A stretch of 64,000 nt of DNA. It comes from Pigmentiphaga litoralis. GTDB lineage: Bacteria > Pseudomonadota > Gammaproteobacteria > Burkholderiales > Burkholderiaceae_B. Position numbers and translations under genes: made by a program. Below, one piece after another: positions 18,357-39,833 of this stretch. Location of the stretch: NCBI RefSeq assembly GCF_013408655.1, contig NZ_JACCBP010000001.1, positions 2,418,001 to 2,482,000 on the forward strand. The letters are read 5' to 3'. A model generated the notes under the pieces. That model was not told the origin of the DNA. It saw only the letters and a list, made by a program, of their open reading frames with translations, and searched no databases. Numbering within the stretch: the stretch's first letter is position 1; the number at the start of each line of letters is the position of its first letter.

Positions 18357-18365
18357 GGGAGCCCC

Positions 18366-19319: not shown

Positions 19320-19320
19320 C

Positions 19321-21909: not shown

Positions 21910-23331
21910 TCAGCCTGGAATGCCCGGCAACGACGCGTCGTGGGGCCGGGGGTCCGGGGCGCCGCCGTCCGTGACCGCTGCGTCCTGCGCATAGTGAAAG
22001 GCTTCATCACGCGCGCTGTCGTAAACCGGCACGCCGGCCACGTAGGTGGCCTTGACGGCCCGGTCGTCGCCCAGCGTCATCAGCACGAACAGCTTTTCCA
22101 GGATGTCCTGGGTGAAGCCCATGCGGAAGGCGATCAGCGGCGTCGGCGCCAGATCCAGCACGACCAGGTCGGCGTCGTACCCCGGCGCGACCGATCCCAG
22201 CGAGTCCTGCAGGTACAGGGCCTCGGCCCCGCCCCGCGTCGCCAGGTAGAAGGCATGCGCTGCCGTCAGCCGGCCCTGCGCCATTTGCGAAACCTTGTAG
22301 GCTTCGTTCAGGGTGTGCAGCGTGCTGAAGCTGGTGCCCGCGCCGATGTCCGACCCGATGCCCACGCGGACCGGCCGATCCGTCTGCTTGGCTTCGGTCA
22401 GCTTGAACAGGCCGCTGCCCAGGAACAGGTTGGACGTCGGGCAATGCGCCAGCGCCGATCCGGTGCGATGGCAGCACGCGAAGTCGACATCATCCATGTG
22501 CACCGCGTGGCCGAAGATGGCGCGTGGACCGGTCAGGCCGGCATGGTCATACACGTCCAGATAGCTGGAACGTTGCGGGAACAGATCGCGCACCCAGTCG
22601 ATCTCGCCGGTGTTTTCGGCCAGATGGGTCTGCATGTAGGTGCCGGGGTGCTCTTTCCACAACCGCGCGGCGGCGGCCAATTGTTCGTCGGTGGACGACG
22701 CGGCAAACCGCGGCGTGATGCAGTACAGCTGCCTGCCGCGGCCATGCCACTTCTGCAGCAAGGCCTTTGATTCGTCGTAGCCGCGTTCGGCGGTGTCCAG
22801 CAGCGCATCAGGCGCGTGCCGGTCCATCAGCACCTTGCCCGCGATCATCCGGGTGTTGAAACGTTCGGATTCTTCAAACAACGCGTCCACCGATTCGGGG
22901 TGAACGGTGCAGTACACCGCGGCGGTCGTCGTGCCCGAGCGCAGCAGCTCGCGCAGGAACACACGCGACACGGTATCGGCGTGCGACTTGTCGGCAAACT
23001 GCTGTTCGGCAATGAAGGTGTACTTGTTCAACCATTCCAGCAGTTGCTCGCCGAATGCGCCGATCATTTGCGTTTGCGGGTAGTGCACGTGGCAGTCGAT
23101 GAAGCCGGCGCAGATCAGGCTGTCGGGATAGTGCGTGACCGTGACAGCCGACCCCGCGGCCTGCGTCGCGGCATCCACCGCGGCATCCGAATAGGGATCG
23201 ACCGACACGATCTTGCCGTCCGCCATCACGACCAGGGCGTCGTCCAGATATCGGTAGCTGCTGGCCGGGTCGACCAGGAAAGGGTCCTGATGAAAGGTAA
23301 TGACCGAGCTGCGCAATGCCGTGACAGTCAT
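21910..23331 (-). CDS. guaD: guanine deaminase
   Basis: 473-residue amidohydrolase converting guanine to xanthine and ammonia. Zinc ligands and family motifs: ICAGFIDCHVHYPQ (His81, His83), YMQTHLAEN (His236), FGHAVHMDD (His275), HCPTSNLFLGSGLF and GIGSDIGAGTSF (Asp328). Length fits bacterial GuaD. The ATG at 23331 gives the conserved start; the frame stays open another 530 codons upstream only as a shadow of the divergent aminotransferase. No xanthine dehydrogenase genes lie in the window. It is cytosolic. Whether it belongs with the divergent amine cluster is not clear; it shares that promoter region only. Confidence 0.95.
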   Translation of the reverse strand: MTVTALRSSVITFHQDPFLVDPASSYRYLDDALVVMADGKIVSVDPYSDAAVDAATQAAGSAVTVTHYPDSLICAGFIDCHVHYPQTQMIGAFGEQLLEWLNKYTFIAEQQFADKSHADTVSRVFLRELLRSGTTTAAVYCTVHPESVDALFEESERFNTRMIAGKVLMDRHAPDALLDTAERGYDESKALLQKWHGRGRQLYCITPRFAASSTDEQLAAAARLWKEHPGTYMQTHLAENTGEIDWVRDLFPQRSSYLDVYDHAGLTGPRAIFGHAVHMDDVDFACCHRTGSALAHCPTSNLFLGSGLFKLTEAKQTDRPVRVGIGSDIGAGTSFSTLHTLNEAYKVSQMAQGRLTAAHAFYLATRGGAEALYLQDSLGSVAPGYDADLVVLDLAPTPLIAFRMGFTQDILEKLFVLMTLGDDRAVKATYVAGVPVYDSARDEAFHYAQDAAVTDGGAPDPRPHDASLPGIPG

Positions 23332-23464
23332 GGCGGTGTCCTCATGAAGCGCGCCGATGGCGACGTGGCGAAAGTGCGGCCAGTGTAGAAGAGATTCGTC
23401 TCCACACGTTGCACACAAAGTCTCGACGCCCGGGCAAGGTTGGCGCAGCAGACTGCGCCCAGTC

Positions 23465-23517: not shown

Positions 23518-24888
23518 ATGAGCGCAGCGATGCTGGCGGACGAAGCCAAATATTGTTCCTTCGGTGACACGGTCCACTATGTGAACCCACCCAAGATCTT
23601 CACCGGCTGCGACGGCAGCTATATGTTCGATGCCGCGGGCACGCCGTATCTGGATCTGCAGATGTGGTATTCGGCCGTCAACTTCGGCTACAAGAATCCG
23701 CGGCTGACCGCCGTCATGAAAAAGCAGCTGGACGAGCTGCCCCAGGTGGCCAGCCAGTACCTGCATCCGACCAAGATCGAACTGGCCAAGACGATTGCGC
23801 AGGATGCCGAACGCAAGTTCGGCCATGCCGGCCGCGTGCACTTCAATGTGGGCGGATCGCAGTCGATCGAAGACTCGCTCAAGATCGTGCGCAACGCATC
23901 GAATGGCAAAAGCCTGATGTTCGCCTTCGAAGGCGGCTACCACGGCCGCACCCTGGGCGCATCCAGCATCACGTCTAGCTACCGCTACCGCCGCCGCTAC
24001 GGCCACTTCAGCGACCGCGCGCACTTCATTCCTTTCCCCTACCCGTTCCGCCGCAAGCCCGGCATGACGGCCGAGGAATACGCCGACTTTCTGGTCAAGG
24101 ACTTTGCCCGGCTGTTCGAGACCGAATACCACGGCGTGTGGGACCCGAAGGCCGGACAGTGCGAATACGCCGCCTTCTACGCCGAAGCCATCCAGGGCAC
24201 GGGCGGATATGTCGTGCCGCCGCGCAACTACTTTCCGGCGCTGAAAAAGGTGCTGGATCAGTACGGCATCCTGCTGGTGATCGACGAGATCCAGATGGGC
24301 TTCTACCGGACCGGCAAGCTGTGGGCGATCGAGCACTTCGACGTCAAGCCCGACATGATCGTGTTCGGCAAGGCGCTGACCAACGGCATGAATCCGCTGG
24401 GCGGCCTGTGGGCGCGAGAAGAACTGATCAACCCGACGGTGTTCCCGCCCGGGTCCACGCATTCGACCTTTGCGGCCAATCCGCTCGGCACGGCGATCGG
24501 CCTTGAAACGCTGCGCATGACGTCCGAAGACAACTTCGGCCGGCAGGTGATGGAACGGGGCGCCTACTTCCTGGAAGGCTTGCGCGACCTGCAGAAACGG
24601 CACAAGGAAATCGGCGATGTCGATGGCCTGGGCCTGGCGCTGCGCGCCGAGATCTGCCAGGAAGACGGCTTTGCGCCGAACCGCGAATTGCTCGACAAGA
24701 TGGTCGACATCGGCCTGTCGGGCGATCTGGAATACCAGGGCAAGAAGGTCGGCCTGGTGCTGGACGTGGGCGGCTACTACAAGAACGTGATCACCTTTGC
24801 CCCGTCGCTGATGATCTCGTTTGCCGAAATCGACCAGGCCATGGTGCTGCTGGATCAGTTGCTGACGCGCGCAAAACGGGCGATGTGA
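23518..24888 (+). CDS. class III PLP-dependent aminotransferase
   Basis: 456-residue class III (ornithine/acetylornithine/GABA-type) aminotransferase. Key residues: Asp256 in LLVIDEIQMGFYRTGK, which contacts the PLP pyridine nitrogen, and Lys285 in VFGKALTNG, which forms the Schiff base. FEGGYHGRTLG and PPGSTHSTFAANPLG are also diagnostic. These enzymes transfer amino groups at the end (omega position) of diamines or amino acids, or act on 2-amino acids. It is the first gene of a tightly overlapped three-gene operon with an acyltransferase-like and a ureohydrolase-like protein, so it probably makes or removes the amino group of the same molecule. The exact substrate is unknown. Confidence 0.9.
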   Translation: MSAAMLADEAKYCSFGDTVHYVNPPKIFTGCDGSYMFDAAGTPYLDLQMWYSAVNFGYKNPRLTAVMKKQLDELPQVASQYLHPTKIELAKTIAQDAERKFGHAGRVHFNVGGSQSIEDSLKIVRNASNGKSLMFAFEGGYHGRTLGASSITSSYRYRRRYGHFSDRAHFIPFPYPFRRKPGMTAEEYADFLVKDFARLFETEYHGVWDPKAGQCEYAAFYAEAIQGTGGYVVPPRNYFPALKKVLDQYGILLVIDEIQMGFYRTGKLWAIEHFDVKPDMIVFGKALTNGMNPLGGLWAREELINPTVFPPGSTHSTFAANPLGTAIGLETLRMTSEDNFGRQVMERGAYFLEGLRDLQKRHKEIGDVDGLGLALRAEICQEDGFAPNRELLDKMVDIGLSGDLEYQGKKVGLVLDVGGYYKNVITFAPSLMISFAEIDQAMVLLDQLLTRAKRAM

Positions 24889-25979
24889 CGACACTCGAAC
24901 CTGCTCCCCTGCTGTCGGCATTCCTGCGGCATCCGCCGGAAGGGTTCGACGTGCTGACGCTGCCGGCGCCCTGCCACGAACCGGTGTTTGCGGCGCACTT
25001 CGACCTGCTCACCACGGCCGACCCGGCACTGGTGATGCAGGTCAAGGGGCTGCCGGGCTACCGGTGGTGGGGCCGCTGGCTGCGCATCCGCACGGCGTTT
25101 GTCGGGACCACCGTGTCGGAATACGTGCCGCTGCCGGCGGCGCCTTGCGTGCTGCCGCAGATGCGGGTCGCGGCATGGCGCGCCCTGGCGGCGCGCTTTC
25201 GGCTGCTGGTCGTCAAGGATCTGCCCTGCGATTCGCCGCTGCTGGGCGCGCAAGGCAACCTGGCGGCCGATGCCCTGGCGCAGGCCTGCGCCAGGGCAGG
25301 CTTCGTGCTGCTGGCCGGCCAGCAACTGGCCTATGTCGATATCGACTTCGTGTCGATCGATGCCTATCTAGCCCGCTTGTCGGCCAGCCGGCGCAAGAAT
25401 ATCCGGCGCAAGCTGCGCAGCCGGACCGATCTGGACGTGGCGCTGGTACAGACCGGCGACCCCAACTTTGACGACCCCGCCGTGATCGACGCGTATTACG
25501 CGCTGTACCTGAACGTGTATGCGCAAAGCGAGATCCACTTCGACCGGTTGTCGCGCGACTTCTTTGCCTACGTGCTGCGGGACGCGAGCAATGGCGGGAT
25601 GGTGTTTGCATATCGGCATGCGGGCGAGCTGATCGGCTTCAACCTGTGCTTTGAACACGGCGGCAAGCTGATCGACAAGTACGTGGGCTTTGCCTATCCG
25701 CAGGCGCGCACGCACAACCTGTATGCCGTGAGCTGGATCGTGAACCTGGAGCATGCCCTGGCGCGCGGATTGACGCACTACGTGGCGGGGTGGACCGACC
25801 CGCAGGTCAAGGCGGAACTGGGCGCCAGCTTCACGCCGACGCGGCATGCGGTGTATGTGCGCAACCCCCTGCTGCGCAAGCTGGCGCGTGCTTTTGCGCA
25901 TCGCTTCGAGGCGGATCGGGAATGGAAGGAAAGCGCGGGGAGACGCGCCACTGTCGGCCCCCCCGGAGCCGCATCGTGA
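24885..25979 (+). CDS. GNAT/FemAB-like acyltransferase (peptidogalycan-biosynthesis-type)
   Basis: 364-residue protein of the acyl-CoA N-acyltransferase fold related to FemAB and to the COG3146-type family. Recognisable parts are SRRKNIRRKLRSR near residue 170, GFNLCFEHGGKLIDKYVGF near 250-270 and ARTHNLYAVSW. The first 150 residues form a second, less conserved lobe. Likely role: transfer of an acyl or aminoacyl group to an amine. The start is a GTG inside the aminotransferase stop (GTGA overlap), so translation is coupled. The partner and donor are unknown; it could also be a degenerate acetyltransferase. Confidence 0.75.
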   Translation: MTTLEPAPLLSAFLRHPPEGFDVLTLPAPCHEPVFAAHFDLLTTADPALVMQVKGLPGYRWWGRWLRIRTAFVGTTVSEYVPLPAAPCVLPQMRVAAWRALAARFRLLVVKDLPCDSPLLGAQGNLAADALAQACARAGFVLLAGQQLAYVDIDFVSIDAYLARLSASRRKNIRRKLRSRTDLDVALVQTGDPNFDDPAVIDAYYALYLNVYAQSEIHFDRLSRDFFAYVLRDASNGGMVFAYRHAGELIGFNLCFEHGGKLIDKYVGFAYPQARTHNLYAVSWIVNLEHALARGLTHYVAGWTDPQVKAELGASFTPTRHAVYVRNPLLRKLARAFAHRFEADREWKESAGRRATVGPPGAAS

Positions 25980-26866
25980 CGCCGCGCCGGACGCCGGTCG
26001 CACTGGACTTCGATGGGTCGATCGGCGCCCTGCCCGGCATGACCCGCATCGCGTTGGGCACCTGGCAGGAAGCGATCCGTTTCGGCTGCCGCGTGGGGGT
26101 CATGGACGCGCTGTCGACCCAGCTGGCGGCGGCGTTGCCTCGTGAGCACGGCACAGTCCTGATGGGCAGCGGCGACTTCCATCATGTGAGCTGGCCCCTG
26201 ATCGAACGCCAGCGGCGGCGGCTTGACGGCAAGCCGTTCCGGATCGTTGTGTTCGACAACCATCCGGACAACATGCGGTTTCCGTTCGGCGTGCACTGCG
26301 GATCGTGGGTGCGGCGCGTGGCCTTGATGCCCGAGGTAACGCACGTGCATGTGGTGGGCATTACATCCGCCGACATCGGCGCGGCCAGCTGCTGGGAAAA
26401 TTATCTGGCGCCGCTGCGCCGCGGCAAGCTGACGTACTGGAGCGTGGGGGTGGACACGCGATGGGCGCAGTGGGCCGGCGTGGCGCGCGGCTTCCGGTCG
26501 TTCGAACATGTCGACGCAATGATCGATGCGTTCGACGGCATGCTTCGCGGGCAGCCCGAGACCACCTATCTTTCCATCGACAAGGACGCGTTCAGCACGG
26601 ATGTCGTGCGGACCAACTGGGATCAGGGCCGCCTGCTGGAAGCGCATGTTGATCGGGTGATCGATAGCCTGGGCGGGCAGATCGTGGCCAGCGACATCAC
26701 GGGCGAGGTCTCGTCCTATGTGTATCGCAGCCGATGGAAACGGTGGCTGAGCGCTGCCGACGGACAGGACATTGCCGTGTCCGCCGGCGATCTGGCGCAG
26801 TGGCAGGCACAACAGCACGCGTTGAATGCGCGGCTGGTGGCGCGGATCTCGGCGGTCAGCGGCTGA
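25976..26866 (+). CDS. divergent ureohydrolase (arginase/agmatinase)-like protein
   Basis: 296 residues. I recognise the arginase-superfamily metal motifs in order. GSGDFHH (residues 65-70) stands where arginases have GGDHS. DNHPD (94-98) stands where they have DAHTD. LSIDKDAF (199-206) stands where they have SxDxDA. So the likely manganese ligands Asp94, His96, Asp98, Asp202 and Asp204 are present, but the surroundings differ from known arginases or agmatinases. The reaction may be removal of urea from a guanidino compound, or another hydrolysis. It starts with a GTG overlapping the previous stop (GTGA). Its 3' end overlaps the convergent transporter gene by 11 bases. Function inferred only from motifs and context. 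Confidence 0.7.
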   Translation: MTPRRTPVALDFDGSIGALPGMTRIALGTWQEAIRFGCRVGVMDALSTQLAAALPREHGTVLMGSGDFHHVSWPLIERQRRRLDGKPFRIVVFDNHPDNMRFPFGVHCGSWVRRVALMPEVTHVHVVGITSADIGAASCWENYLAPLRRGKLTYWSVGVDTRWAQWAGVARGFRSFEHVDAMIDAFDGMLRGQPETTYLSIDKDAFSTDVVRTNWDQGRLLEAHVDRVIDSLGGQIVASDITGEVSSYVYRSRWKRWLSAADGQDIAVSAGDLAQWQAQQHALNARLVARISAVSG

Positions 26867-27311
26867 TCGAGCTGGACGCGTCGGCAGGCAGGGCATCTGC
26901 CGACGCGCCAGCGCCCCCGTCATCCTTTACCGCAGCCCCGCCCTGCCGGCTTTCCGCGATGGCCAGGCACACGATGCCCGCCACGATCAGCACCGCGCCC
27001 ACGCCTTGCAGCGCCGAGATGTGTTCACCGAACAGCCACACCGAGCACAGCATGACACTGACGATTTCCAGATGCGTGGCGGCATAGGCGGGCCCGATGG
27101 GGGCATGACGCAGCAGCGCCATCCACGTAAAGAACGCACCGATGTAGCCCACGAACGCGCCATAGATCCACGGCTCGCTCGCCACGCGCGCCAGCCATGC
27201 CGCGGACAGGTCCATCGGCAAGGCGTGGTTGGCGGCCAGCTTGAAGCTGACCTGCGCCAGGGTATCGAACCCCATCAACACCAGGAAGCCCAGCAGGTAG
27301 AAGCGGCGCAT
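26856..27311 (-). CDS. four-helix SMR/EamA-type membrane transporter, subunit 2
   Basis: 151-residue membrane protein with four predicted helices (about residues 4-24, 50-70, 75-95 and 100-122) and a charged C-terminal tail. It reads like half of an EamA/DMT protein or an SMR subunit: MGFDTLAQVSFKLAANHA, WIYGAFVGYIGAFFTWM, AYAATHLEIVSVML and LIVAGIVCLAIAES. The ATG overlaps the stop of the preceding four-helix gene (ATGA), suggesting a heterodimer as in ArnE/ArnF or paired SMR pumps. It is the last gene of the minus-strand export operon. Role inferred: export or flipping of a small or lipid-linked product. Confidence 0.85.
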   Translation of the reverse strand: MRRFYLLGFLVLMGFDTLAQVSFKLAANHALPMDLSAAWLARVASEPWIYGAFVGYIGAFFTWMALLRHAPIGPAYAATHLEIVSVMLCSVWLFGEHISALQGVGAVLIVAGIVCLAIAESRQGGAAVKDDGGAGASADALPADASSSISR

Positions 27312-27679
27312 CAGGTCCACCCGACGATGGCGACGCCGGCCGTGATCAGCAGGATGCCGACCACCCGCAGCTGTGACAGCTGTTCCTTGAACAGATAGCG
27401 TCCGGCCAGCATGATCGCCACGATGTTGATCGATCCCAGCAGCACGCCGTCCGACAGCGGCACCAGCGACAGGAAGGCCAGCCAGGCAACGAATTCCACG
27501 ACATAGCAGGACAGCCCCAGCCACAGCCAGGGGCGGCGGGCCATGCCGCGCCAACGGGCCACGCCATCGCCTTCGATCGCGTCGGTCGCCGCATATTTGA
27601 AGGCCAGCTGGCCGCCCGTATCGACGACCACGCAGACCATCCACACCAGCAATGCGACCGGCGGCAAGGTGCTCGTCAT
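27311..27679 (-). CDS. four-helix SMR/EamA-type membrane transporter, subunit 1
   Basis: 122 residues, four predicted transmembrane helices: VALLVWMVCVVVDTGGQLAF, WLWLGLSCYVVEFVAWLAF, VLLGSINIVAIMLAGRYLF and VVGILLITAGVAIVG. The VDTGGQLAFKYAA start parallels the DTLAQVSFKLAAN of the next protein, so the two are homologous halves of a probable heterodimer. The stop overlaps the next start. It lies 55 bases after the esterase gene. Substrate unknown. Confidence 0.85.
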   Translation of the reverse strand: MTSTLPPVALLVWMVCVVVDTGGQLAFKYAATDAIEGDGVARWRGMARRPWLWLGLSCYVVEFVAWLAFLSLVPLSDGVLLGSINIVAIMLAGRYLFKEQLSQLRVVGILLITAGVAIVGWT

Positions 27680-27734
27680 GACATGCCCGTAGTGGATGCG
27701 TTCGGTATTGGAGCGTTCGTTAGCGGAGCGTTCA

Positions 27735-28574
27735 TCACGCCGCGGCGCGCAGCGCGGGTTCGCGCGCGGCCACCACGCGATCGATGAACGCGACCGACCG
27801 GCGGATCACGGTGCGGCGTTGACGGTCGATCGTGACCATGTGGTAGCTGTCGTTCAGCAGCACCGTTTCGACACTGGCCCGATGCACCCGCCGCGCGATC
27901 AGCGCCGCGTTGCGCACGCTGGCCACGTCATCCTGCGTCGCATGCACCACGAGGCAAGGCGAGCGGATGTCGCGCAGCTGCCGGCGGACCGCGGCCGACA
28001 GCGCATACATCTCGGCCACGGCATACCACGGATTGCCGGGCAGGCCGGCCGCGGCGCTGTCGCCGCCCTGCATCTTGGCCACGATGCGGCTGCGCAGGTG
28101 TTCGTCCTTGATGCCGTAAGGCGGCCGCTCGGTAAAGCTGCGGCGACGCCCGACGCCCAAGGCCTTGAACACGGGCAGCAGGAAACACAGCCGCGTAAAG
28201 AACGGCATGCTCCACCCGTCGTGACGGAACATGGTGGCGTACGCCCCCACGCCGTGGACCTGGGCGGGCCGATCGGCCGCCAGCTTCAGCGCCAGCAACG
28301 CGCCCATCGACAGGCCGATCACAAAGAAGTGATCGACGTCGGCCGCAAGCCGGTCGGCGGCGGCGCACACGCTGGCATACCAGTCCTGCCAGCCGGTCGC
28401 GATCAGGTCATCCTCGGTGCCGCAGTGACCGGCCAGCTGCATGCCATGCACCGTGTAGCCGGCCTGATGCAGGCCCTTGCCGACCAGCCGCATTTCATTG
28501 GGGGTGCCGGTCAGACCATGGATCAGCAGTACGCCCACCCGCCCGCCGCGAAACAGGAATTCGTTGTCGGTCAT
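27735..28574 (-). CDS. alpha/beta-hydrolase, carboxylesterase/monoacylglycerol-lipase-like
   Basis: 279-residue alpha/beta-hydrolase. LLIHGLTGTPNEM (oxyanion loop, residues 17-28), nucleophile Ser89 in IGLSMGALLA, an Asp in HATQDDVAS and the His in NDSYHMVTID make up the expected triad. It resembles Est30-type carboxylesterases acting on short or medium acyl esters. No signal peptide. The ATG overlaps the HAD phosphatase stop (ATGA), so the two are co-translated. In this operon it could trim an acyl ester from the exported product or its precursor; that is inference. Confidence 0.85.
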   Translation of the reverse strand: MTDNEFLFRGGRVGVLLIHGLTGTPNEMRLVGKGLHQAGYTVHGMQLAGHCGTEDDLIATGWQDWYASVCAAADRLAADVDHFFVIGLSMGALLALKLAADRPAQVHGVGAYATMFRHDGWSMPFFTRLCFLLPVFKALGVGRRRSFTERPPYGIKDEHLRSRIVAKMQGGDSAAAGLPGNPWYAVAEMYALSAAVRRQLRDIRSPCLVVHATQDDVASVRNAALIARRVHRASVETVLLNDSYHMVTIDRQRRTVIRRSVAFIDRVVAAREPALRAAA

Positions 28575-29242
28575 GCCGAGATCCGGGCGGGTTCGATCAC
28601 GTCGGCCAGCAAGGCCAGCGCCACGCCAAAGTCCGCGATGGGCGCGAACGGAATGCGTTCGGCTTCGCAGTAGTCGATCAGGCGGCTCTTGGCGAACACA
28701 TAGTCTGCCTTGCCCGACACGCAAAAGTCCGACGTGCTGTCGCCCACGAACAGCACTGCCGCGCCGTCCTGGTGATGCACGGCCAGGCAGGCGCATTTGC
28801 AGGTGCCGCTGGCCCGGGTGCACGACGCCTTGGCGTAGGGCGATTCCAGGGCCCAGCGCCGCTCGCCCACCTGCACCAGATGGTTTGCGCTGACCGGCAG
28901 ATCGCCCAGGCCGTGCCGCTGCAGGATGCTGCGGATCACCCGGTCCATGCCGTCGCTGATGACTTCGACCGGCAGGCCCAGCGACTGCGCCGTGCGCACG
29001 AAGTCCACAAAGAACGGATCGATGGCGATGGTGTCCAGATGCGCCGCCAGTTCGTGCTCGCTCATGTCCAGCAACGCGATCTGGCCGCGCATGCATTCCC
29101 GCGAGCCGATGTCGCCGCGCTCCCAGGCGGCTTCCAGTTCATGCCATCCGGGCTGGCCAAACCGTTCCAGCAGCGAGTCGGTCACGTCGGCCAGGCTGAT
29201 GGTGCCGTCGAAGTCGCACTGCACACGCCAAGTTTCATTCAT
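28571..29242 (-). CDS. MtnX-like HAD-IB phosphatase
   Basis: 223-residue HAD-superfamily phosphatase. Motif I is CDFDGTIS with nucleophile Asp10 and acid Asp12, motif II is VISDGMD, and motif IV is LFVGDSTSDFCV. The cap is the small helical type of the HAD-IB/MtnX/PSP group. There is a Cys-rich stretch CTRASGTCKCACL around residues 140-152, which is unusual and could bind metal. The start overlaps the lipoprotein adaptor gene by 8 bases. It probably removes phosphate from a biosynthetic intermediate; the substrate is unknown. It is not accompanied by other methionine-salvage genes, so an MtnX role is unlikely. Confidence 0.85.
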   Translation of the reverse strand: MNETWRVQCDFDGTISLADVTDSLLERFGQPGWHELEAAWERGDIGSRECMRGQIALLDMSEHELAAHLDTIAIDPFFVDFVRTAQSLGLPVEVISDGMDRVIRSILQRHGLGDLPVSANHLVQVGERRWALESPYAKASCTRASGTCKCACLAVHHQDGAAVLFVGDSTSDFCVSGKADYVFAKSRLIDYCEAERIPFAPIADFGVALALLADVIEPARISA

Positions 29243-30263
29243 GGAAGTTCACCCTTACGGTTTGGCCGATGCGCAAGGCCGGCGGCTGGTCGAATTCAAG
29301 GACGCACTCGATGACACGCACCGCGGCGCGCGGCTGGGTGTCGTCATACAGCTGGCTTGCGCCATAGGTCTGCGCGATGCGGATAAGGCGCGCCGGCAGC
29401 GCCTGCTGGCGGCCGTTGGACTCCAGCGTCACATCGGCGCGCATGCCGGGTTTGACTCGCGCGGCATAACTTTCATTGAGTTCCGCGCGCACGATCAGCG
29501 GCCGGTCAGGCACGATCACCAGCAGCGGCGCCGCCTGCCCCGCACGAACCCATGCACCTGCCTGCGTGCTTACTGCCGCCACCCGCCCGCTCTGCGGCGC
29601 GTGGATCGTGCGCTGCGCAAGCGCGTACGCGGCCTGCGCGCGTTTCTGTTTCTGGATGGCGGCGTCGGCACGCGACAGACGCACGGCGGCTTCCAGCTGC
29701 TGCACGGTGGCCGCGGCATCGTCAGCACGCTGACGGTCGGTCGCGCCCAGCGCCGCGGCGGATGCCAGGCGGCGGGCCAGGTCACGGGCGGCCGGCACCC
29801 GGGCAGCGTCCGACTGCGCGACGGCAGTGGCGCGCTGCAGTTCGGCGTCGGCCAGGGCCAGATCGAGTTGCGCCGATTGTTCGGACAATTGGACCAGCAC
29901 CTGGCCGCGCTTGACCGCATCGCCGGGCTTGACCGCGACGTGGGTAACCTGGCCATCGGCCATGGCGGCGATATCGAGCAGCCCGCCATCGATATCGACC
30001 TTGCCCCGCGCGATGGCGACGACCTGGGCGGACGCCGCCGCGGCGTTGGAGCCTGAGGCCGCGGCGTTGGACCCGGAGGGCGCGGCCGCCGCCGATCCCG
30101 CGGTCTGCGCGGTCGGCGCAGCCGACGCCCCATCGGAACATCCGGCCAGACCGCCAAGGGCCATCAGACCAAGAACTGCCCCAAGCCACGTCAGCCGCGT
30201 GACCGGGGACACGCCCCGCAGCAGCGTCGACCGCATCGTGCGGGCCATGAATCGGGCCATCAT
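29235..30263 (-). CDS. HlyD-type periplasmic adaptor lipoprotein
   Basis: 342-residue membrane-fusion protein. The lipobox LGGLAGC gives lipidated Cys42. A low-complexity Ala/Ser linker follows, then biotinyl-lipoyl-like halves (IAAMADGQVTHVAVKPGDAV and PQSGRVAAVSTQAGAWV), a coiled-coil hairpin (about 130-215) and a beta-barrel domain. It links the ABC transporter to the NodT-type outer-membrane factor of the same operon. The ATG at 30263 is preceded by a strong GGAGGA and overlaps the ATPase stop (ATGA). The two ATG codons in tandem make the exact start uncertain by one residue. Confidence 0.88.
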   Translation of the reverse strand: MMARFMARTMRSTLLRGVSPVTRLTWLGAVLGLMALGGLAGCSDGASAAPTAQTAGSAAAAPSGSNAAASGSNAAAASAQVVAIARGKVDIDGGLLDIAAMADGQVTHVAVKPGDAVKRGQVLVQLSEQSAQLDLALADAELQRATAVAQSDAARVPAARDLARRLASAAALGATDRQRADDAAATVQQLEAAVRLSRADAAIQKQKRAQAAYALAQRTIHAPQSGRVAAVSTQAGAWVRAGQAAPLLVIVPDRPLIVRAELNESYAARVKPGMRADVTLESNGRQQALPARLIRIAQTYGASQLYDDTQPRAAVRVIECVLEFDQPPALRIGQTVRVNFHE

Positions 30264-31075
30264 TCCTCCTCCTTGATCACGCCGGCGGCCTGTCCCTGCG
30301 CCTCGCCCTGCCGCCAATCGCCACGGATCATGCCGTCTTCCATCGTCAGGACACGATCGGCATGGCGCACCAGCCGCGGATCGTGGCTGACACACAGCAC
30401 GGTCGTGCCGCGCGTGCGCGCCACACGGTGCAGGATGTCGACCACGTTCTGGCCATTGGTCGCGTCCAGCGCGCTGGTCGGCTCGTCGGCAAACAGCAGT
30501 TGCGGCGCCTTGGCCAAGGCGCGGGCGATCGCCACGCGTTGTTTTTCACCGCCCGACAATTGCGCCGGACGCCAGTCGGCGCGATGCGTCATGCCGACGT
30601 CGTCCAGCGCTTCCCGCGCGCGGCGGCGCGCTTCGCGGCTCGAGATGCCCAGGTAGCCCAAAGGCAGCTCGACCTGTTCGCACGCGGTCAGGGCCGGGAA
30701 CAGATTGAAGCCCTGGAACACAAAGCCCGTGTGATGCAGGCGAAAGCGTTCAATAGCCCGCTTGCTCAGGTTGCCCAGCCGCTGGCCCAGCGCCAGGGCC
30801 TCGCCTTCGTCCGGAGCCTGCAGGCCGCTGAGCAAGGACAGCAGCGTGCTTTTGCCGCAGCCCGACGGACCCGAGATCAGCGTCAGTTCCGCGGGGAACA
30901 CGGCGATCGACAGCCGCTGCAGCACCTGGATGCGGACCACGCCCGACAGGAAGGACTTGCTGACGCCCACCGCTTCCAGGCTGGGCGCCGGGAGGCGAGC
31001 CACGGGTTGACGGGATGCCGGATGGCGGGAGCCGGTCTTGGCAGGTGCGTGCAGCGATGCGGTCTGGATAGGCAT
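30260..31075 (-). CDS. ABC transporter ATP-binding protein (LolD/MacB/DevA type)
   Basis: 271-residue ATPase with a 35-residue N-terminal extension. Walker A is GPSGCGKST, the signature is LSGGE, Walker B is LLFADEPTSALD and the switch His is in CVSHDPRL. GFVFQGFNLFPALTACEQVELPL is the LolD/MacB-type Q-loop region (shown as FQGFNLFPALTA). The ATG at 31075 sits 5 bases after the permease stop. It powers export by the FtsX-type permease with the HlyD adaptor and outer-membrane factor, a DevABC/MacAB-like tripartite system. Confidence 0.92.
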   Translation of the reverse strand: MPIQTASLHAPAKTGSRHPASRQPVARLPAPSLEAVGVSKSFLSGVVRIQVLQRLSIAVFPAELTLISGPSGCGKSTLLSLLSGLQAPDEGEALALGQRLGNLSKRAIERFRLHHTGFVFQGFNLFPALTACEQVELPLGYLGISSREARRRAREALDDVGMTHRADWRPAQLSGGEKQRVAIARALAKAPQLLFADEPTSALDATNGQNVVDILHRVARTRGTTVLCVSHDPRLVRHADRVLTMEDGMIRGDWRQGEAQGQAAGVIKEEE

Positions 31076-31080
31076 GGCAA

Positions 31081-32217
31081 TCACCGCAGCAACATCGAAG
31101 GGTCCGCACGCGACAGGCCGCGCACCGCGATCAGACCTGACACCAGGGCCAGCACGATCACCAGCGCGGCGCACGCCGCCGCCACGGTCACATTCAAGGC
31201 GACCGGCACATCGCGGCTGGCCGCGATCGACAGCAAGGCCGCGCTGGCCAGGCCGCCCACCATCAGCCCCAGGCCGCCGATCCAGCACGACTGTTCCACC
31301 ACCACCCGGCTCAGCGCGGACAGGCTCGCACCCAAGGCATTGAGCGTGGCGTATTCCCGGGCCGATGCCACCACCATGGCCATCAACGACTGGCTGGTAA
31401 TGACCGCGCCGACCAGGCAGACGATCCCCGCCATGAACAGCACGGCCACCCCTGCCCCGGTATCGAAGATCCAGTAACGCTGCGACAGCGTGGCGAACGC
31501 ATCGGCGGTCCAGACTTCGAACGGGCCGAAGGCGGCGTCGGGCACCAGCCGTTGGCGCACGGCGTCGGCCTTGGCCGGATCGCGCACCCGGGCCACGAAA
31601 TAGGTGGCACTGCCCGGCACCGCGTCGGCGGCATCCAGCATGCGGGCCGTGTCGATCGACGCCAGCACATTGACCCCGCCCAAAGCACGCAAGCCCGCGA
31701 CGGTCGCGACCACGTGCACGCGCTGGCCGTTGATCCACGCGGTCGCCCCGTCATCCACACCCAGCGAGGCAAGGTCGGCCCGGTCCACCACCACGGCGCC
31801 CGGGTCAGCCAGCTTGCGGCGCGTGGCCGGCTTGATCAGGCGCGCGAACATCATCGCGTCGGCACGCGTCTCGATGCCCGACACGAACACCGGCACGCCG
31901 CCACCGGTATTGCCCCGGTCACGCCAGTCGCCTTCCACCCACACATAGGGTTCGACGGCGGTCACGTCCGGATCCATGCGCAGGCGCACCTCGACATCGG
32001 GGCTGATGGCCCGGCCGAAGTTCACGCTTTGCGTGCCCGGGAAACCGGCCCACAGGTCGGCTGTCGACCCGGTCACATACACCGACGCGCTGCCGAAAAT
32101 GCCCAGCACCAGGGCAGCCTGCACCGTCAGCAGCACCCCCGAAAAGGCGATCGCCAGCACCGCGGGCAGAAAGCGCCGCCATTCATACACCAGGGTCTTG
32201 CGGGCGAGCGCGATCAT
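31081..32217 (-). CDS. FtsX-family ABC permease (DevC/MacB-like)
   Basis: 378-residue permease. One N-terminal helix (about 17-40) is followed by a large periplasmic domain (about 45-255) and three C-terminal helices (about 260-285, 305-330, 340-370). The C-terminal part has SLMAMVVASAREYATLNALGAS, the typical FtsX coupling region (quoted in part). The topology matches MacB/LolC/DevC mechanotransmission permeases that push substrates from the periplasmic side into an adaptor and TolC-like channel. The ATG overlaps the outer-membrane factor stop (ATGA). Confidence 0.9.
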   Translation of the reverse strand: MIALARKTLVYEWRRFLPAVLAIAFSGVLLTVQAALVLGIFGSASVYVTGSTADLWAGFPGTQSVNFGRAISPDVEVRLRMDPDVTAVEPYVWVEGDWRDRGNTGGGVPVFVSGIETRADAMMFARLIKPATRRKLADPGAVVVDRADLASLGVDDGATAWINGQRVHVVATVAGLRALGGVNVLASIDTARMLDAADAVPGSATYFVARVRDPAKADAVRQRLVPDAAFGPFEVWTADAFATLSQRYWIFDTGAGVAVLFMAGIVCLVGAVITSQSLMAMVVASAREYATLNALGASLSALSRVVVEQSCWIGGLGLMVGGLASAALLSIAASRDVPVALNVTVAAACAALVIVLALVSGLIAVRGLSRADPSMLLR

Positions 32218-33656
32218 GAGGCAGCCTCGTCGTGGGGCGGTGGCGACGCCGCGTCCGGTGGTGGCGTTGCCGCCCCGTCCATCGGCAGCGGCGCGCCGCC
32301 CAGCGCCTTGTACAGGGTCACGAAGGCCAGGTTGCGGCGCGCCCGGGCGACCACCAGATCCTGGTCGGCCGACAACGCGCCCTGCTGGTCGTCCAGGCCA
32401 TCGAAGTCGCTGGCCAGGCCCAGCCCGACCAGGGATTGATGGGTGGACCGCTGCCGTGCGACAGTCTGGCGGGCGTCCTCGAGTTGCGCGACGCGCTCGG
32501 TCTGGAATTGCAGCGCGGCCAGGGCGATTTCAACGTCGGCCACGCCCTCCAGCACAGCCTGCCGGTAGGCCGTCACGGCGGCGTCCAGCGCTTCCCGCTT
32601 CGCGGCGGCGCCGGCCTGACGGCGGCCCCAGTCGAACAGAGGCAGATCGATGATCGGGCCGGCCGCGACCCCTGTGTTGAAGCGCGACCTCGGCGAGCGG
32701 GTCAGGTTGTACGACACCAGATAGGACGCGCCCAGCGCCACGCGGGGATAGAGTTCGGATCGCGCAATGCCCAGTTCGCCCGCGGCTTGGGCCACATCGG
32801 CTTCGGCGCGGCGGATCTCGGGCCGCACCCGCAGCAAGTCCGCGGGCACCTGTGCAATCGACCGGACCGCCAGCGCAGGCTGGCCAGCAGGCGACATCCA
32901 GGCCGGATCCGGCCGCGTCTGTCCCAGCAACGCGGCCAGGCTGTGCGCGGCCGCGGACTGCGCCGCCATCGGATCGGCCAGCGACGCACGGGTCCGTGCC
33001 TGGCGCAGCGCCACGGCATCGCGTTCGCCCGCAGCGGCCAGCCGGTGATCGATGCGGGCATCGATCAGCGCCAGGCTGCGGGCATCCAGCCGCAATTGCG
33101 CCTGACCCTGCGCCAGTTGCTCCTGCGCCGCCCGCAAGTCCAGATAATGGCGCACCACCTCGGCCACCACCGTCACGCGCGCGGCCTGCTCTTCGGCCAG
33201 CGCCAGATCGATCCCGCCCCGGTAGCGCTGGGTGGCGCCTTCGCGCGCGCCGAACAGGCCCAGATCCCAGATCGCATCCAGGCTGCCCTGCAGATAGGTG
33301 TCTTGCGCGGAAGGCGGCTGGACGCTGCGCGTGCCCGCCGACAGGCTCGGCAGGAAGGACGAGGTCACGCCCTGCGACAGTTGCCGGGCCTGCCGCACCC
33401 GGCTGCCGGCCTCGGCCAGCGTCAGGTTCTGCGCCAGCGCCTGGTCCACCAGCGTGTTCAGCGCCGGGTCGTTGAACGCGGTCCACCACGTCCGCAGGTC
33501 GGGCCCCGCCGGCAAGGCAAGCGCCGGATCCGCTTCGCTCCATGCCGCCGGCACGCTGCGATCCAGCGGCGGGATCGGCACGCCCATGCACCCGGCCATA
33601 CCGGCCGCGGCGGCGCACGCCGCAAGGCAAGACATCAGGGGACGGCGTAAAGGCAC
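32214..33656 (-). CDS. NodT/OprM-family outer-membrane efflux lipoprotein
   Basis: About 480-residue RND/ABC-type outer-membrane factor with the duplicated TolC fold. Marks are WWTAFNDPALNTLVDQALAQN, the coiled-coil stretches, and PADLLRVRPEIRRAEADVAQA at mid-protein (quoted in parts). I prefer the GTG at 33656, which gives a positively charged n-region (MPLRRPL) before the hydrophobic stretch and the lipobox MAGC (Cys23). The ATG at 33635 is the alternative and would lack that charge. No clear Shine-Dalgarno is seen for either. It is the first gene of the eight-gene operon and is divergent from the two-component pair. Confidence 0.85.
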   Translation of the reverse strand: MPLRRPLMSCLAACAAAAGMAGCMGVPIPPLDRSVPAAWSEADPALALPAGPDLRTWWTAFNDPALNTLVDQALAQNLTLAEAGSRVRQARQLSQGVTSSFLPSLSAGTRSVQPPSAQDTYLQGSLDAIWDLGLFGAREGATQRYRGGIDLALAEEQAARVTVVAEVVRHYLDLRAAQEQLAQGQAQLRLDARSLALIDARIDHRLAAAGERDAVALRQARTRASLADPMAAQSAAAHSLAALLGQTRPDPAWMSPAGQPALAVRSIAQVPADLLRVRPEIRRAEADVAQAAGELGIARSELYPRVALGASYLVSYNLTRSPRSRFNTGVAAGPIIDLPLFDWGRRQAGAAAKREALDAAVTAYRQAVLEGVADVEIALAALQFQTERVAQLEDARQTVARQRSTHQSLVGLGLASDFDGLDDQQGALSADQDLVVARARRNLAFVTLYKALGGAPLPMDGAATPPPDAASPPPHDEAAS

Positions 33657-33772
33657 GACAGGCGGGTCCAATCCAGAGCCGCCACCAGGGGCGGATGCTG
33701 CCCCGTCCCGGCTGGGGCGGACGGCAAGTGGCCGGATTGTCGATCCCTTGTCTTGCCCGCCGGTGCAGGTTA

Positions 33773-33791
33773 TGTGGAGACTGTGTGGAGA
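33773..33791. promoter_or_regulatory. tandem 11-bp-spaced direct repeat, candidate response-regulator box
   Basis: TGTGGAGA occurs at 33773-33780 and again at 33784-33791, exactly 11 bases apart, one helical turn. OmpR/PhoB-type regulators bind such tandem direct repeats. The site lies in the 219-base divergent promoter between the export operon and the OmpR-type regulator gene at 33876, so it is a good candidate for that regulator's binding site. Confidence 0.6.
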
Positions 33792-33809
33792 GGCCCCAGC
33801 CAGAGAAAT

Positions 33810-33829
33810 GTTGTCGCGAAGGCGATAAC
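33810..33829. promoter_or_regulatory. inverted repeat upstream of the response-regulator gene
   Basis: GTTGTCGC (33810-33817) and GCGATAAC (33822-33829) form 8-bp arms with one mismatch around GAAG, 47 bases before the regulator start. It may be an operator or a leader hairpin. Confidence 0.4.
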
Positions 33830-33875
33830 AAGGCGGATAATCGGCGCAAAACAAGACTCGACAAACAGCCCGCCC

Positions 33876-34598
33876 ATGACCAACCCCGACGCTTCCCATC
33901 TCAACCGGCTGGTCCTCGTTGTCGAAGACGAAGGCAGTCTTGCCGACATCCTGGTCGCCTATCTGCAGCGCGATGGCCTGCGGACGCAACATGCCGACAA
34001 TGGCCTGACCGCCTTGCAGAACTTCCGGCAGAACCGGCCCGACATCGTGTTGCTGGACATCCGGCTGCCGGGCATCGATGGCGTCGATGTGCTGAAAACC
34101 ATCCGCGCCGAAAGCGATACCCCGGTCATCATGGTGACCGCCATGGCCGACGACGTGGACAAGCTGGTCAGCCTGCGTATGGGCGCCGACGACTACGTCG
34201 TCAAACCCTTCAATCCCGCCGAAGTCGTGGCGCGCGTGCGGGCGGTCCTGCGGCGCACTGCGGCGGCGGGGCAGCAGCGGCCGTCCATGCTGCGCGTCGG
34301 ACGCCTGCAGATCGATCGATCAGCCCACGCCGCGTCGGTGCGCGACGATGACGGCACGACCCGGCCCCTGCCGCTGACCCTGACCGAATACAAGCTGCTC
34401 GAAACGATGGCGAACCAGCCGCGGCGCTGCTTCACGCGGTCCGACCTGGTGGAGGCCTGCCTGCCGGAAAGCGACGCGCTGGACCGGGTCATCGACTCGC
34501 ATCTGAGCAAGCTGCGCCGCAAGCTGGAAGTGGGCGGCTGCGGCGACATGATCGACACCGTGCGCGGCATCGGATACCGGCTGTGGCCCGAGTCCTAG
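33876..34598 (+). CDS. OmpR-family response regulator
   Basis: 240-residue regulator. The receiver domain (residues 11-128) has the acidic pocket in VVEDEGS, phospho-acceptor Asp61 (VLLDIRLPG), Thr in MVTAMADD and Lys110 (DDYVVKPFN). The C-terminal winged helix (about 140-238) ends in DSHLSKLRRKLE and TVRGIGYRLWPES. It resembles BaeR/AdeR-type efflux regulators. The ATG at 33876 gives the proper N-terminus. It overlaps the histidine kinase gene by 16 bases. It is divergent from the tripartite exporter operon, which it probably controls. Confidence 0.93.
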   Translation: MTNPDASHLNRLVLVVEDEGSLADILVAYLQRDGLRTQHADNGLTALQNFRQNRPDIVLLDIRLPGIDGVDVLKTIRAESDTPVIMVTAMADDVDKLVSLRMGADDYVVKPFNPAEVVARVRAVLRRTAAAGQQRPSMLRVGRLQIDRSAHAASVRDDDGTTRPLPLTLTEYKLLETMANQPRRCFTRSDLVEACLPESDALDRVIDSHLSKLRRKLEVGGCGDMIDTVRGIGYRLWPES

Positions 34599-35734
34599 AC
34601 CGCATCTGGGTCCGCTTCGGCCTCTACATGGCCGGCACCATCGTCGTGACCTTCGGCCTGGTGATGGGCAGCCTGCTGCTGTATTCCGAGCTTCAGGAAG
34701 GATGGCTGCATCGCAGCCTGCCGAAGACCGCGTCGGCCGAACTGGCCCGGATCGAAGAAGTGGAAGACCGCAACTCGGCGCGCTTTGACGAAATCCTTCG
34801 CGAACATGGCCGCAACAGTATCTGGCTGGACGAGACCTGGCTGCTATTCATGGCCCTGCTGCTCTGCCTGCCGGCCGGTCTGGCCGCGGGCTTCTGGCTG
34901 TCACGGGTGGTGACGCAGCCGCTCAATTCAATTGCGCAAGCGGCCAATCGGGTGGCGCTTGGGGACCTGGGCGTACGCGCGCAACCCGTCCGGCAGCGCG
35001 GCGAACTGGCCGAGCTGGTGCGCGACTTCAATCTGATGACGGACTCGCTGGAAAACCTGGAGCGGGAACGACGGGCCACGGCGGCCGCGATCTCGCATGA
35101 ATTGCGCACGCCACTGGCCGTGCTGCGCGCCCGCCTGTATGCGATCTACGACGATGTGATTCCCGGAACGCCGCAGGAACTGCGGCGGCTATTGGATCAG
35201 GTCGAGCACCTGGGCAGGCTGGTCGACGACGTGCATACCCTGTCGCTGGCGGACGCGGGCCGGCTGTCCCTGCATCGCAGCGATATCGACCTGAGCGCGG
35301 CCTGCGCGCAGTTGCTGTCGACCTATGCCGGCCGCATCGCCGATCACAACGTACGCGCGGAATACCGGACCGACATCGTGCCGGTCCACGCGAACGCCGA
35401 CCCGGACCGGATCAACCAGATCCTGTCCAACCTGATAGAAAATGCGTTGCGGTATGCGGCCAGCGGCGAGTGGCTGGAAATCGCGGTGCATCGGCACGAC
35501 GACAAGGCCGTGCTGACCGTGACCGATCGTGGCCCCGGTCTGCCCGAAGATGTGGTGGCGCATCTGTTCGAGCGCTTTCACCGCACCGATCTGTCGCGAT
35601 CGCGAGAGACCGGCGGGTCGGGACTGGGCCTGGCCATCGTGCAGACCCTCGTCATCCAACAAGGCGGCCAAGTGACTGCAGAACGGCCGGCCGAGGGCGG
35701 CACCCGTTTCCGGGTAGCCCTGCCGGCGGCCTGA
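34583..35734 (+). CDS. sensor histidine kinase (BaeS/AdeS-like)
   Basis: 383-residue membrane kinase. Two transmembrane helices (about 11-33 and 84-106) flank a short 50-residue periplasmic loop. A HAMP linker follows (VTQPLNSIAQAANRVALGDL). Then the phospho-acceptor His is in AAAISHELRTPLAVL, the N box in LSNLIENALRYA, G1 in VTDRGPGLP and G2 in GGSGLGLAIV. The GTG at 34583 lies within the regulator gene and gives coupled translation. The small loop suggests sensing within or near the membrane. Likely signal: a substrate or stress relieved by the divergent exporter. Confidence 0.92.
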   Translation: MARVLDRIWVRFGLYMAGTIVVTFGLVMGSLLLYSELQEGWLHRSLPKTASAELARIEEVEDRNSARFDEILREHGRNSIWLDETWLLFMALLLCLPAGLAAGFWLSRVVTQPLNSIAQAANRVALGDLGVRAQPVRQRGELAELVRDFNLMTDSLENLERERRATAAAISHELRTPLAVLRARLYAIYDDVIPGTPQELRRLLDQVEHLGRLVDDVHTLSLADAGRLSLHRSDIDLSAACAQLLSTYAGRIADHNVRAEYRTDIVPVHANADPDRINQILSNLIENALRYAASGEWLEIAVHRHDDKAVLTVTDRGPGLPEDVVAHLFERFHRTDLSRSRETGGSGLGLAIVQTLVIQQGGQVTAERPAEGGTRFRVALPAA

Positions 35735-38675: not shown

Positions 38676-39808
38676 CACCGCGGCGCCTCCGTTTCGACCG
38701 GGACGCTGGCCGTGTCGATGCTGGCGACCACCGACATGCCGGGCCGCAGCCGGTCGGCCAGCGGCTGGTCCGGATCGATGCGGATGCGCACCGGGATGCG
38801 CTGCGCGATCTTCACGAAGTTGCCCGTCGCGTTGTCGGCTGCCAGCACGCTGAACTCCGACCCCGTGGCCGGCGATATGCGTTCGACATGCCCGGTCAGC
38901 TTCGCCCGATTCAAGGCGTCGATCTGCAGCGTGGCGGCCTGCCCCAGCCGCACCTGCGCCATCTGCGTTTCCTTCAGATTGGCAATCACCCAGACCTGTT
39001 CGGGCACCAGCGCCATCAGTTGCGCGCCCGAGTTCACATAGGCGCCCTGCCGCACCAGCACCTGGCCAAGCAGGCCATCCCGCGGCGCGACGATGCGGGT
39101 GTTGGACAGGTCGATCTCGGCCAGTTGCACGGCGGCCTGCGCGGCTTCCACCGCAGCCTCCAGCGACCCGCGATTGACGACCACGGTTTCGCGATCCTGG
39201 CGCGAAATTTCCAGCGCCGCCCTTGCCTGCTCTGCCGCGGCCGCGGCCTGCGCGTGCGCCGCACGGGTCTGGTCGCGTTCGCGCAATGACAGGGAACCAT
39301 CCGACACCAGTTCTTCGACCCGGCGCAGATCCGCGGTGGAACGTGCCGCCTGCGCGTCGGCATTCGCAATGGCCGCGCGATTCTGCGCAATGACGGCATC
39401 GGCGCGGCGGCGCTGCTGTAGCGCGTTGGCCAGCGCGGCTTTCTGCGCTGACAGTTGCGCCAGCGCCTGGTCCAGGCGCTGTTTGTAGATGCGGTCATCG
39501 ATCCGCACCAGCAGGTCGCCGGCCTTGACGCGCTGGAAGTCCTGCACCCGCACCTCGGCCACGTAGCCGCTCAGTTGCGGGCCGATCAGCGTGACCTGCC
39601 CGCGTACATAGGCGTTCTCGGTGCTTTGCACGCCGCTTGTGAATGGCGGAAGCCGCCATGCATACAGAACGATCAGTACACCGATGATCGCGATGCCCGC
39701 GAAAAGAGACAGCGACAGCGCCCGGCGGCCACTGAACCGGCGCGCAGGCGGTGGCGGGGGGGCAGCAGCGGCGGGCGGTATCGCGGAAGGCGGGGCGGGT
39801 GTGCTCAT
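38675..39808 (-). CDS. EmrA-type membrane-fusion protein
   Basis: 377-residue HlyD-family adaptor. A Pro/Ala-rich cytoplasmic start is followed by one transmembrane helix (about 31-50) and then ENAYVRGQVTLIGPQLSGYV, the hallmark of EmrA/HlyD-like adaptors. A long coiled-coil hairpin (about 95-205) and the conserved IVAPRDGLLGQVLV and MSVVASIDT follow. Together with the 14-helix MFS protein upstream and the NodT channel downstream it makes a multidrug tripartite pump. I use the ATG at 39808; an ATG at 39844 would overlap the MFS stop, and neither has a clear Shine-Dalgarno. Confidence 0.9.
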   Translation of the reverse strand: MSTPAPPSAIPPAAAAPPPPPARRFSGRRALSLSLFAGIAIIGVLIVLYAWRLPPFTSGVQSTENAYVRGQVTLIGPQLSGYVAEVRVQDFQRVKAGDLLVRIDDRIYKQRLDQALAQLSAQKAALANALQQRRRADAVIAQNRAAIANADAQAARSTADLRRVEELVSDGSLSLRERDQTRAAHAQAAAAAEQARAALEISRQDRETVVVNRGSLEAAVEAAQAAVQLAEIDLSNTRIVAPRDGLLGQVLVRQGAYVNSGAQLMALVPEQVWVIANLKETQMAQVRLGQAATLQIDALNRAKLTGHVERISPATGSEFSVLAADNATGNFVKIAQRIPVRIRIDPDQPLADRLRPGMSVVASIDTASVPVETEAPR

Positions 39809-39833
39809 GGTGGGTGGAAAGCCAGGTACGGGA

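Follow-up and report, generated by a model that had tools for sequence, protein, structure and literature searches.

The subject of this analysis is a pair of operons in a 64-kb stretch of the Pigmentiphaga litoralis genome (C1:2418001-2482000 of 6.17 Mb; hereafter the window). A plus-strand operon for an aminotransferase, a FemAB-like transferase and a ureohydrolase-like protein (amT-femAB-arg) lies tail to tail with a minus-strand operon for a tripartite exporter, two hydrolases and two small membrane proteins (oep-ftsx-abc-mfp-had-abh-eam1-eam2), next to the genes of a two-component system (rr and hk). On balance, we favor the interpretation that these genes constitute one two-promoter regulon for the synthesis and two-step export of an acylated or aminoacylated amine. 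An earlier note, made from the letters of the window, had proposed that the two operons belong together; this was indeed borne out by their linkage across genera, their co-occurrence when not adjacent, and a promoter element common to both. Literature searches found no description of the cluster, although they covered few subscription journals, so that its undescribed status is not proven.

Linkage, co-occurrence and a common promoter element

A contig scan of 84,980 species genomes with an arg alignment confirmed 401 relatives, and all locus counts given here refer to the best 80 of them, chosen by rank; the presence of a gene was judged by identity thresholds that we set, and several loci are cut by contig ends. 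The closest arg relative from a named organism was that of Pigmentiphaga litoralis (81% identity). All eleven genes were found together in 32 of the 80 loci, from Burkholderiales, Rhodanobacteraceae and Pseudomonas luteola/asuensis, and linked sets occurred in Variovorax, Comamonas, Delftia, Paracidovorax, Herminiimonas, Rhodanobacter, Frateuria, Fulvimonas and P. luteola/asuensis. Beside arg stood femAB in every locus; degT (for a pyridoxal phosphate, PLP, enzyme described below) and eam2 were present in 61 loci each, eam1 in 59, abh in 57 and amT in 52, followed by had (40 loci), ftsx and oep (38 each), mfp (37) and abc (35), together with genes for a ketosynthase (KS) and an acyl carrier protein (ACP) in 42 loci each and for a cyclopropane (CFA) synthase in 14. 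At least six of the eight minus-strand genes accompanied amT-femAB-arg in 34 of the 52 loci that contain this trio, and none of the eight was present in 14 of the 80. Because it is conserved in other genera, the arrangement represents more than chance.

Sixteen arg-positive genomes were then checked as a whole, and an ftsx orthologue (50-69% identity) was found in 15, in 14 of which it lay outside the stretch fetched around arg, some copies perhaps being farther off on the same contig. The first eight genomes had been picked for incomplete or rearranged neighborhoods (three Dyella, two Rudaea, one Dokdonella, one Luteibacter, and G058); ftsx was present in seven (50-62%), the Luteibacter copy being the linked one, and an amT orthologue (68-77%) in six, with amT and ftsx only 3-4 kb apart in the three Dyella and the Dokdonella genome, outside the stretch around arg. 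The second eight, taken from the 14 loci without any minus-strand gene, all contained ftsx (52-69%). In a class sample of 370 genomes, with the best 4-6 candidates scored per genome, arg was found in only 3, ftsx (E 1e-25) in 8, of which 5 including the window's own reached at least 52%, and amT (E 1e-80) in 7, namely its own genome, three others with 75-80% identity and a further three with 60-64%. Among the 367 genomes of this sample without arg, ftsx with an identity of 50% or more was present in 2, against 15 of the 16 arg-positive genomes above. An orthologue-level DegT match (507-556 bits, the next being 172) occurred in 2 of the 370, both with arg. The earlier note had asked whether the two operons co-occur in other genomes; the comparison was run, and they do.

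A common element, composed of CTCCACA-like heptamers with 11-base spacing, was found upstream of amT and oep in several genera, and each window promoter contains three such 7-base repeats. A spacing of 11 bases is that of OmpR/PhoB-type boxes, and the response regulator is proposed to be the activator of both operons. Promoter models were built with the window excluded, from the 50 of 52 amT loci that were long enough (sites in 25 of the 50) and from 36 of 38 oep loci (sites in 17 of the 36). When the window was scanned, the amT-trained model placed the amT promoter first (51.0) and the oep promoter second (11.2), with the rest at or below -7.1, and the oep-trained model scored the oep promoter at 26.0 and the amT promoter at 25.7, the next being -1.9. 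In the held-out genome G066, the oep-trained model again ranked the promoters of amT and oep highest (31.2 and 17.9; next 4.2), and the amT-trained model found the amT promoter only (14.5; next -6.1); in the held-out locus L031, whose stretch falls short of oep, the amT promoter led with both. In the 16 loci with a response regulator 57-73% identical, which were among the training loci of the models, a site was present at the oep promoter in 16 of 16 and at the amT promoter in 14 of 16. No promoter site was found in L033, a locus of the same genus as the window without a regulator in its stretch, or in L049, L174 and L177 (best score 3.7), and L037 gave a single stray score of 7.0, at a place other than the amT and oep promoters.

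Concatenated trees of the plus and minus operons broadly agreed. In both, the 16 Rhodanobacteraceae rows formed one clade, outside which fell the window, Pseudomonas luteola/asuensis, Herminiimonas and Comamonadaceae; the window branch is long, and its exact place differs between the trees. Pairwise identities of the two operons correlated at 0.97 over 34 rows, a value that vertical descent alone could equally produce.

These data bear directly on the proposal that the two are merely neighboring operons with no functional link. The operons are convergent and separately transcribed, and are apart in some genomes; moreover, the core of G066 has neither femAB nor arg beside it, and amT occurs without the permease in three genomes. 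Against this stand the linkage conserved in many genera, the co-occurrence when unlinked, and the common promoter element, on which grounds independence was rejected as close to refuted, and we regard it as exceedingly unlikely.

Exporter, transporters and enzymes of the putative pathway

With permease, ATPase, adaptor and channel encoded by overlapping genes of one operon, and with PF02687, PF00005, PF13437/PF16576 and PF02321 all above their gathering scores, the exporter belongs to the broad tripartite ABC efflux type (MacAB/DevBCA-like). It resembles DevBCA-TolC and MacAB-TolC in joining a separate FtsX-type permease and a LolD/DevA/MacB-type ATPase to an adaptor and an outer-membrane channel, but differs from them in three respects. 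First of all, the DevA, DevB, DevC and MacB scores fell under the NCBIfam cut-offs: DevA, the best match of abc, gave 219.1 bits (cut-off 295.8), DevC, the best match of ftsx, 54.6 bits (290.35), and mfp scored 44.5 bits with the DevB model (129). Second, the channel is NodT-like with a lipobox, and reached 207.3 bits across nearly the whole of the NodT model TIGR01845, narrowly missing the cut-off of 210.05. Third, as judged by gene overlap, the exporter is co-transcribed with the HAD phosphatase, the esterase and the paired small transporter.

The two adjacent EamA/SMR-type genes recall the paired SMR transporters MdtIJ (polyamine type) and ArnEF (lipid type). Matches to the specific models fell short: eam1 scored 32.6 bits with ArnE and eam2 31.1 bits with ArnF (cut-offs 92 and 99), and with the SMR family PF00893 (gathering score 23.7) eam2 reached 20.7 bits and eam1 was unlisted at E 1e-3. 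Both proteins contain an invariant Asp in helix 1 (Asp20 of eam1 in 57 of 57 sequences, Asp16 of eam2 in 62 of 62), standing 8 residues before an invariant Lys, where the known types have Glu or Asn. On comparison by eye with the EmrE sequence, this residue may correspond to Glu14 of EmrE. Lipid-type SMRs often carry Asn at this position, according to PMC9574504. The invariant Asp favors proton-coupled cation transport over a lipid flippase.

Among the enzymes, AmT would make the amine, and FemAB would carry out N-acyl or N-aminoacyl transfer. The femAB product indeed has the FemAB/MprF fold of two GNAT-like lobes, and on fold comparison was closest to the aminoacyl-tRNA-dependent transferases Sba18/Sbb17, MprF and FemX, because of which aminoacylation is as likely as acylation. 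It is only 10-18% identical to FemAB/FemX/MprF and to Sba18/Sbb17 of streptothricin, had no PF02388 match at E 1e-3, and in a sequence profile search had no solved relative at E 0.1. Fold comparison likewise confirmed an arginase-like (ureohydrolase) fold in Arg. Ureohydrolases bind a binuclear metal center through the motifs GGDHS, DAHxD and SxDxDxxDP; the corresponding motifs of Arg (GSGDFHH, DNHPDN and SIDKD) vary little or not at all, but depart from these, the third lacking DP. Together with a weak PF00491 score and an identity of 10-18%, they set Arg apart from agmatinase, guanidinase and proclavaminate amidinohydrolase, and it is probably a binuclear metal hydrolase. The had product belongs to TIGR01489 but not to the MtnX equivalogs (88.4 bits against a cut-off of 292, and 71.3 against 303.2); its nearest solved structure by sequence profile was 2fea.

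In the regulon that we favor, the histidine kinase would sense an envelope-side signal, and the response regulator would activate both promoters, so that enzymes and exporter are made together. AmT would then make the amine, the HAD enzyme would remove a phosphate, FemAB would join an acyl or aminoacyl group to the amine, Arg may split a C-N bond of either the precursor or the product, and Abh, which is esterase-like, may act on an ester-containing intermediate. The Eam1/Eam2 pair would carry the cationic product over the inner membrane by proton exchange, and Mfp-Abc-Ftsx-Oep would then drive it out of the periplasm and across the outer membrane. Relatives have additional enzymes: a DegT-like PLP enzyme and often a dedicated ketosynthase and acyl carrier protein may feed the same pathway; since many relatives possess the latter two, a fatty or polyketide-like chain is indicated, and an N-acylated or lipid-like amine is a plausible exported product. 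Dedicated KS and ACP proteins feeding an N-acyltransferase constitute NodE/NodF-NodA-type logic, which the 42 loci with KS and ACP beside a GNAT-fold transferase resemble, and from which the window genome differs in having no KS orthologue.

A more elaborate version would make the product a secreted natural product of a new class. Here a FemAB-like ligase, dependent on aminoacyl-tRNA, would attach an amino acid to the amine made by AmT, the unusual ureohydrolase would edit the attached group (for example, arginyl to ornithinyl), relatives would add a KS/ACP chain, and the proton-coupled Eam pair would hand the product over to the DevBCA/MacAB-like exporter, all under the two-promoter regulon. 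We consider this combination quite unlikely as a whole.

The same parts could instead serve cell-envelope modification, with an amine-bearing lipid placed in the outer membrane and not secreted. FemAB would aminoacylate or acylate the lipid, the Eam pair would flip it, and the ABC/NodT line would move it to the outer leaflet, making the surface charge less negative, as MprF or Arn systems do. The fold neighbors of FemAB (Sba18/Sbb17, MprF and FemX) are consistent with this, as are the Eam proteins, which among NCBIfam models scored best, though far below cut-off, with ArnF and ArnE, the best matches of permease and ATPase to DevC and DevA, and the CFA synthase (14 of 80 loci) and KS and ACP (42 of 80) beside arg. 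On the other side, the thirteen genes include no sugar-nucleotide enzyme, glycosyltransferase or ArnT-like transferase, both Eam proteins have the invariant Asp where lipid-type SMRs frequently have Asn, and a tripartite outer-membrane channel would suggest that the product leaves the cell. Overall, envelope modification is an unlikely explanation, though one of the two main rivals, along with detoxification. An Arn-type aminoarabinose pathway as such was rejected, given the same lack of sugar-nucleotide enzymes and glycosyltransferases in the set and Arn model scores far below cut-off. EmbRS (PMC3684757), a LuxR-type system with polysaccharide clusters, was also rejected as the same system.

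Another reading is resistance or detoxification, in which the two-component pair would respond to a toxic amine or to a compound active on membranes, which the enzymes would modify and the exporters expel. Among NCBIfam models, the response regulator was nearest to AdeR (256.1 bits; cut-off 340) and the kinase to BaeS and AdeS (238.1 and 221.5 bits; cut-offs 500), all below cut-off. Efflux systems commonly contain NodT and MacAB-like parts, and in G066 the exporter, hydrolases and amT are present with neither femAB nor arg alongside. Nonetheless, the KS and ACP pair, the DegT-like enzyme and FemAB, found in the same neighborhoods in many genera, look biosynthetic, and AmT, 76-87% identical in the 32 complete loci, seems too conserved for varied substrates. 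A detoxification role thus appears rather improbable to us.

Layout of the locus and neighboring genes

The eleven genes and the two-component pair were found where the earlier note had placed them, and its family labels agreed in broad family with the Pfam and NCBIfam assignments (Table 1). Gene starts in the minus operon are our choice among candidate starts, and eam2, mfp, abc, oep and rr were scanned with Pfam as frames longer than the genes listed. The Pfam gathering score was reached by amT, femAB, arg, eam2, abh, had, mfp, abc, ftsx, oep, rr and hk, and all catalytic motifs looked for in the locus proteins were intact. As noted earlier, both plus-operon junctions (amT/femAB and femAB/arg) are 4-base GTGA overlaps. 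The minus-strand junctions had been described as mostly ATGA overlaps or gaps under 60 bases; oep/ftsx, abc/mfp and had/abh are ATGA overlaps, and ftsx/abc is instead a GTGA; mfp and had overlap by 8 bases, eam1 and eam2 by 1, and abh and eam1 are 55 bases apart. At their stop ends, arg and eam2 share 11 bases. The OmpR-type pair is indeed divergent from the minus operon, 240 bases from oep, and the kinase has two hydrophobic segments on either side of a loop of ~50 residues.

Table 1 Genes and promoter elements of the two operons
Feature	Position	Strand	Evidence
amT, class III PLP aminotransferase, 456 aa	23518..24888	+	PF00202 250 bits; GKALTNG motif
femAB, FemAB-like/GNAT-fold transferase, 364 aa	24885..25979	+	
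arg, divergent ureohydrolase, 296 aa	25976..26866	+	
eam2, small EamA/SMR-type membrane protein, 151 aa	26856..27311	-	PF00892 33.1 bits (longer frame)
eam1, partner EamA/SMR-type membrane protein, 122 aa	27311..27679	-	PF00892 26.8 bits, cut-off 28.2
abh, alpha/beta hydrolase (esterase/lipase-like), 279 aa	27735..28574	-	PF12146 76.8 bits; GLSMG nucleophile motif
had, MtnX-like HAD-IB phosphatase, 223 aa	28571..29242	-	TIGR01489 98.5 bits, cut-off 81.55
mfp, periplasmic adaptor with lipobox, 342 aa	29235..30263	-	PF13437, PF16576; LAGC lipobox
abc, DevA/LolD/MacB-type ATPase, 274 aa	30260..31084	-	PF00005
ftsx, FtsX-type permease, 378 aa	31081..32217	-	PF02687 35.2 bits
oep, NodT-type outer-membrane channel with lipobox, 473 aa	32214..33635	-	PF02321
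rr, OmpR/PhoB-type response regulator	33876..34598	+	PF00072, PF00486
hk, membrane histidine kinase	34583..35734	+	PF02518, PF00512, PF00672; SHELRTP H-box
plus-operon promoter element	23397..23443	+	~75-120 bases upstream of amT
minus-operon promoter element	33747..33793	-	same repeats as at 23397

Directly upstream of amT, and divergent from it, is a guanine deaminase gene (21910-23331, minus strand), of which no relative at 40% identity was found in 90 loci examined. The minus strand of the window also has a second tripartite exporter at 37239-41564 (NodT-type channel, EmrA-like adaptor and MFS permease) and a gene for a circularly permuted ATP-grasp protein at 19321-20739 (PF14403, 555 bits), which heads a run of four reading frames on that strand (16593 to 20739). 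Nothing was found when the whole window was scanned for tRNA genes and, at gathering thresholds, with Rfam.

Modular composition and weight of the evidence

Comparison of the relatives revealed that the set consists of a core (amT, had, abh, the Eam pair, the exporter and the regulator), a femAB-arg-degT module and a KS-ACP module, and that the window genome has the core plus femAB-arg. Genome G066 carries amT, eam2, eam1, abh, had, mfp, abc, ftsx, oep, rr and hk in the order of the window. The divergent DegT/DnrJ-type PLP enzyme, present in the 61 loci counted above (L060 and L064 included) and in L031, is usually encoded next to eam2; one match (G303:C68:22003-23199) has a single in-frame TGA. 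The window genome has no DegT orthologue, with partial matches only (~31%), and there arg abuts eam2. It has no KS orthologue either; its best match (41%) is taken as housekeeping FabF, and does not exceed the best matches obtained in other genomes of Burkholderiales type (41-46%). In two sampled genomes, exopolysaccharide clusters contain distant DegT relatives of nearly full length adjoining FemAB-type genes, but those clusters have glycosyltransferases, one of them also a polysaccharide deacetylase, and the present one has no glycosyltransferase.

Rearranged forms were also seen. In other genomes of the window's genus (L032-L036 and L038-L040, including the L033 without a promoter site), amT-femAB-arg is next to oep-ftsx, with degT ~8 kb from arg, and in the longer named records of this form (L058, L068, L081 and L084) the eam pair is 9-10 kb away. 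In Pseudomonas luteola, the cluster is immediately preceded by an alkaline phosphatase gene (L064:5256-6725). Family f125 has either abh-had-amT or had-amT-ACP-KS consecutively on a single strand, with a glucose-6-phosphate dehydrogenase gene next, and gave no ftsx match at E 1e-25. In two of its genomes (L186 and L187), KS and ACP adjoin had-amT, and no exporter, femAB or arg was found in the stretch; these represent a simpler relative that may reveal the core chemistry. In G347, KS and ACP are directly upstream of the exporter genes; its locus L174 (958-12140, one strand) encodes a spermidine synthase, an MsbA-like exporter, a spermidine-synthase-like protein, KS, ACP and oep-ftsx-abc-mfp. 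A polyamine product, considered on account of this cluster and of speE-like neighbors, remains a hint: the speE-like gene of Pigmentiphaga loci showed no detectable similarity to that of G347 (tblastn, E 1e-8), and the window contains no match to either.

Several observations weigh against a single regulon with a single product. The locus counts come from loci selected by rank, only a few candidates per genome were scored in the class sample, and the species are related, so that locus and genome counts are not independent events. In the arg-negative part of the sample, ftsx at 50% or above was found in 2 of 367 genomes (52-56%) and a weaker ftsx (29-39%) in three more, and amT in 4 of 367 (G066, G159, G416 and G349), the last three with no ftsx match at E 1e-25. 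The G066 stretch contains no femAB, arg or degT, and no arg or DegT orthologue was found in its genome, where femAB was not sought. Because G066 and the three amT genomes without this exporter exist, the parts are not inseparable. G058 has the enzymes but no ftsx match, and both Rudaea genomes are without an amT orthologue. The product may also differ in the window genome, since its KS and DegT orthologues are missing. As for the promoters, no site was found in 25 of 50 amT promoters and 19 of 36 oep promoters, nor in L096, L129 and L130, where the nearby regulator is 38-41% identical; with half of the promoters and the loci of a different regulator lacking sites, the regulation is not universal. 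Finally, the pattern CTCCAYANNNNNNNCAYAHA, which in the whole genome occurs at the two promoters only (reversed control, 0), was designed after both had been seen, and ~0.6 chance sites are expected by arithmetic; the count therefore mainly says that the regulon is narrow.

If one compound is indeed made and exported by these genes, the regulon would add a class of amine-based products, and would combine, unusually, two paired small transporters with an ABC-type tripartite exporter.

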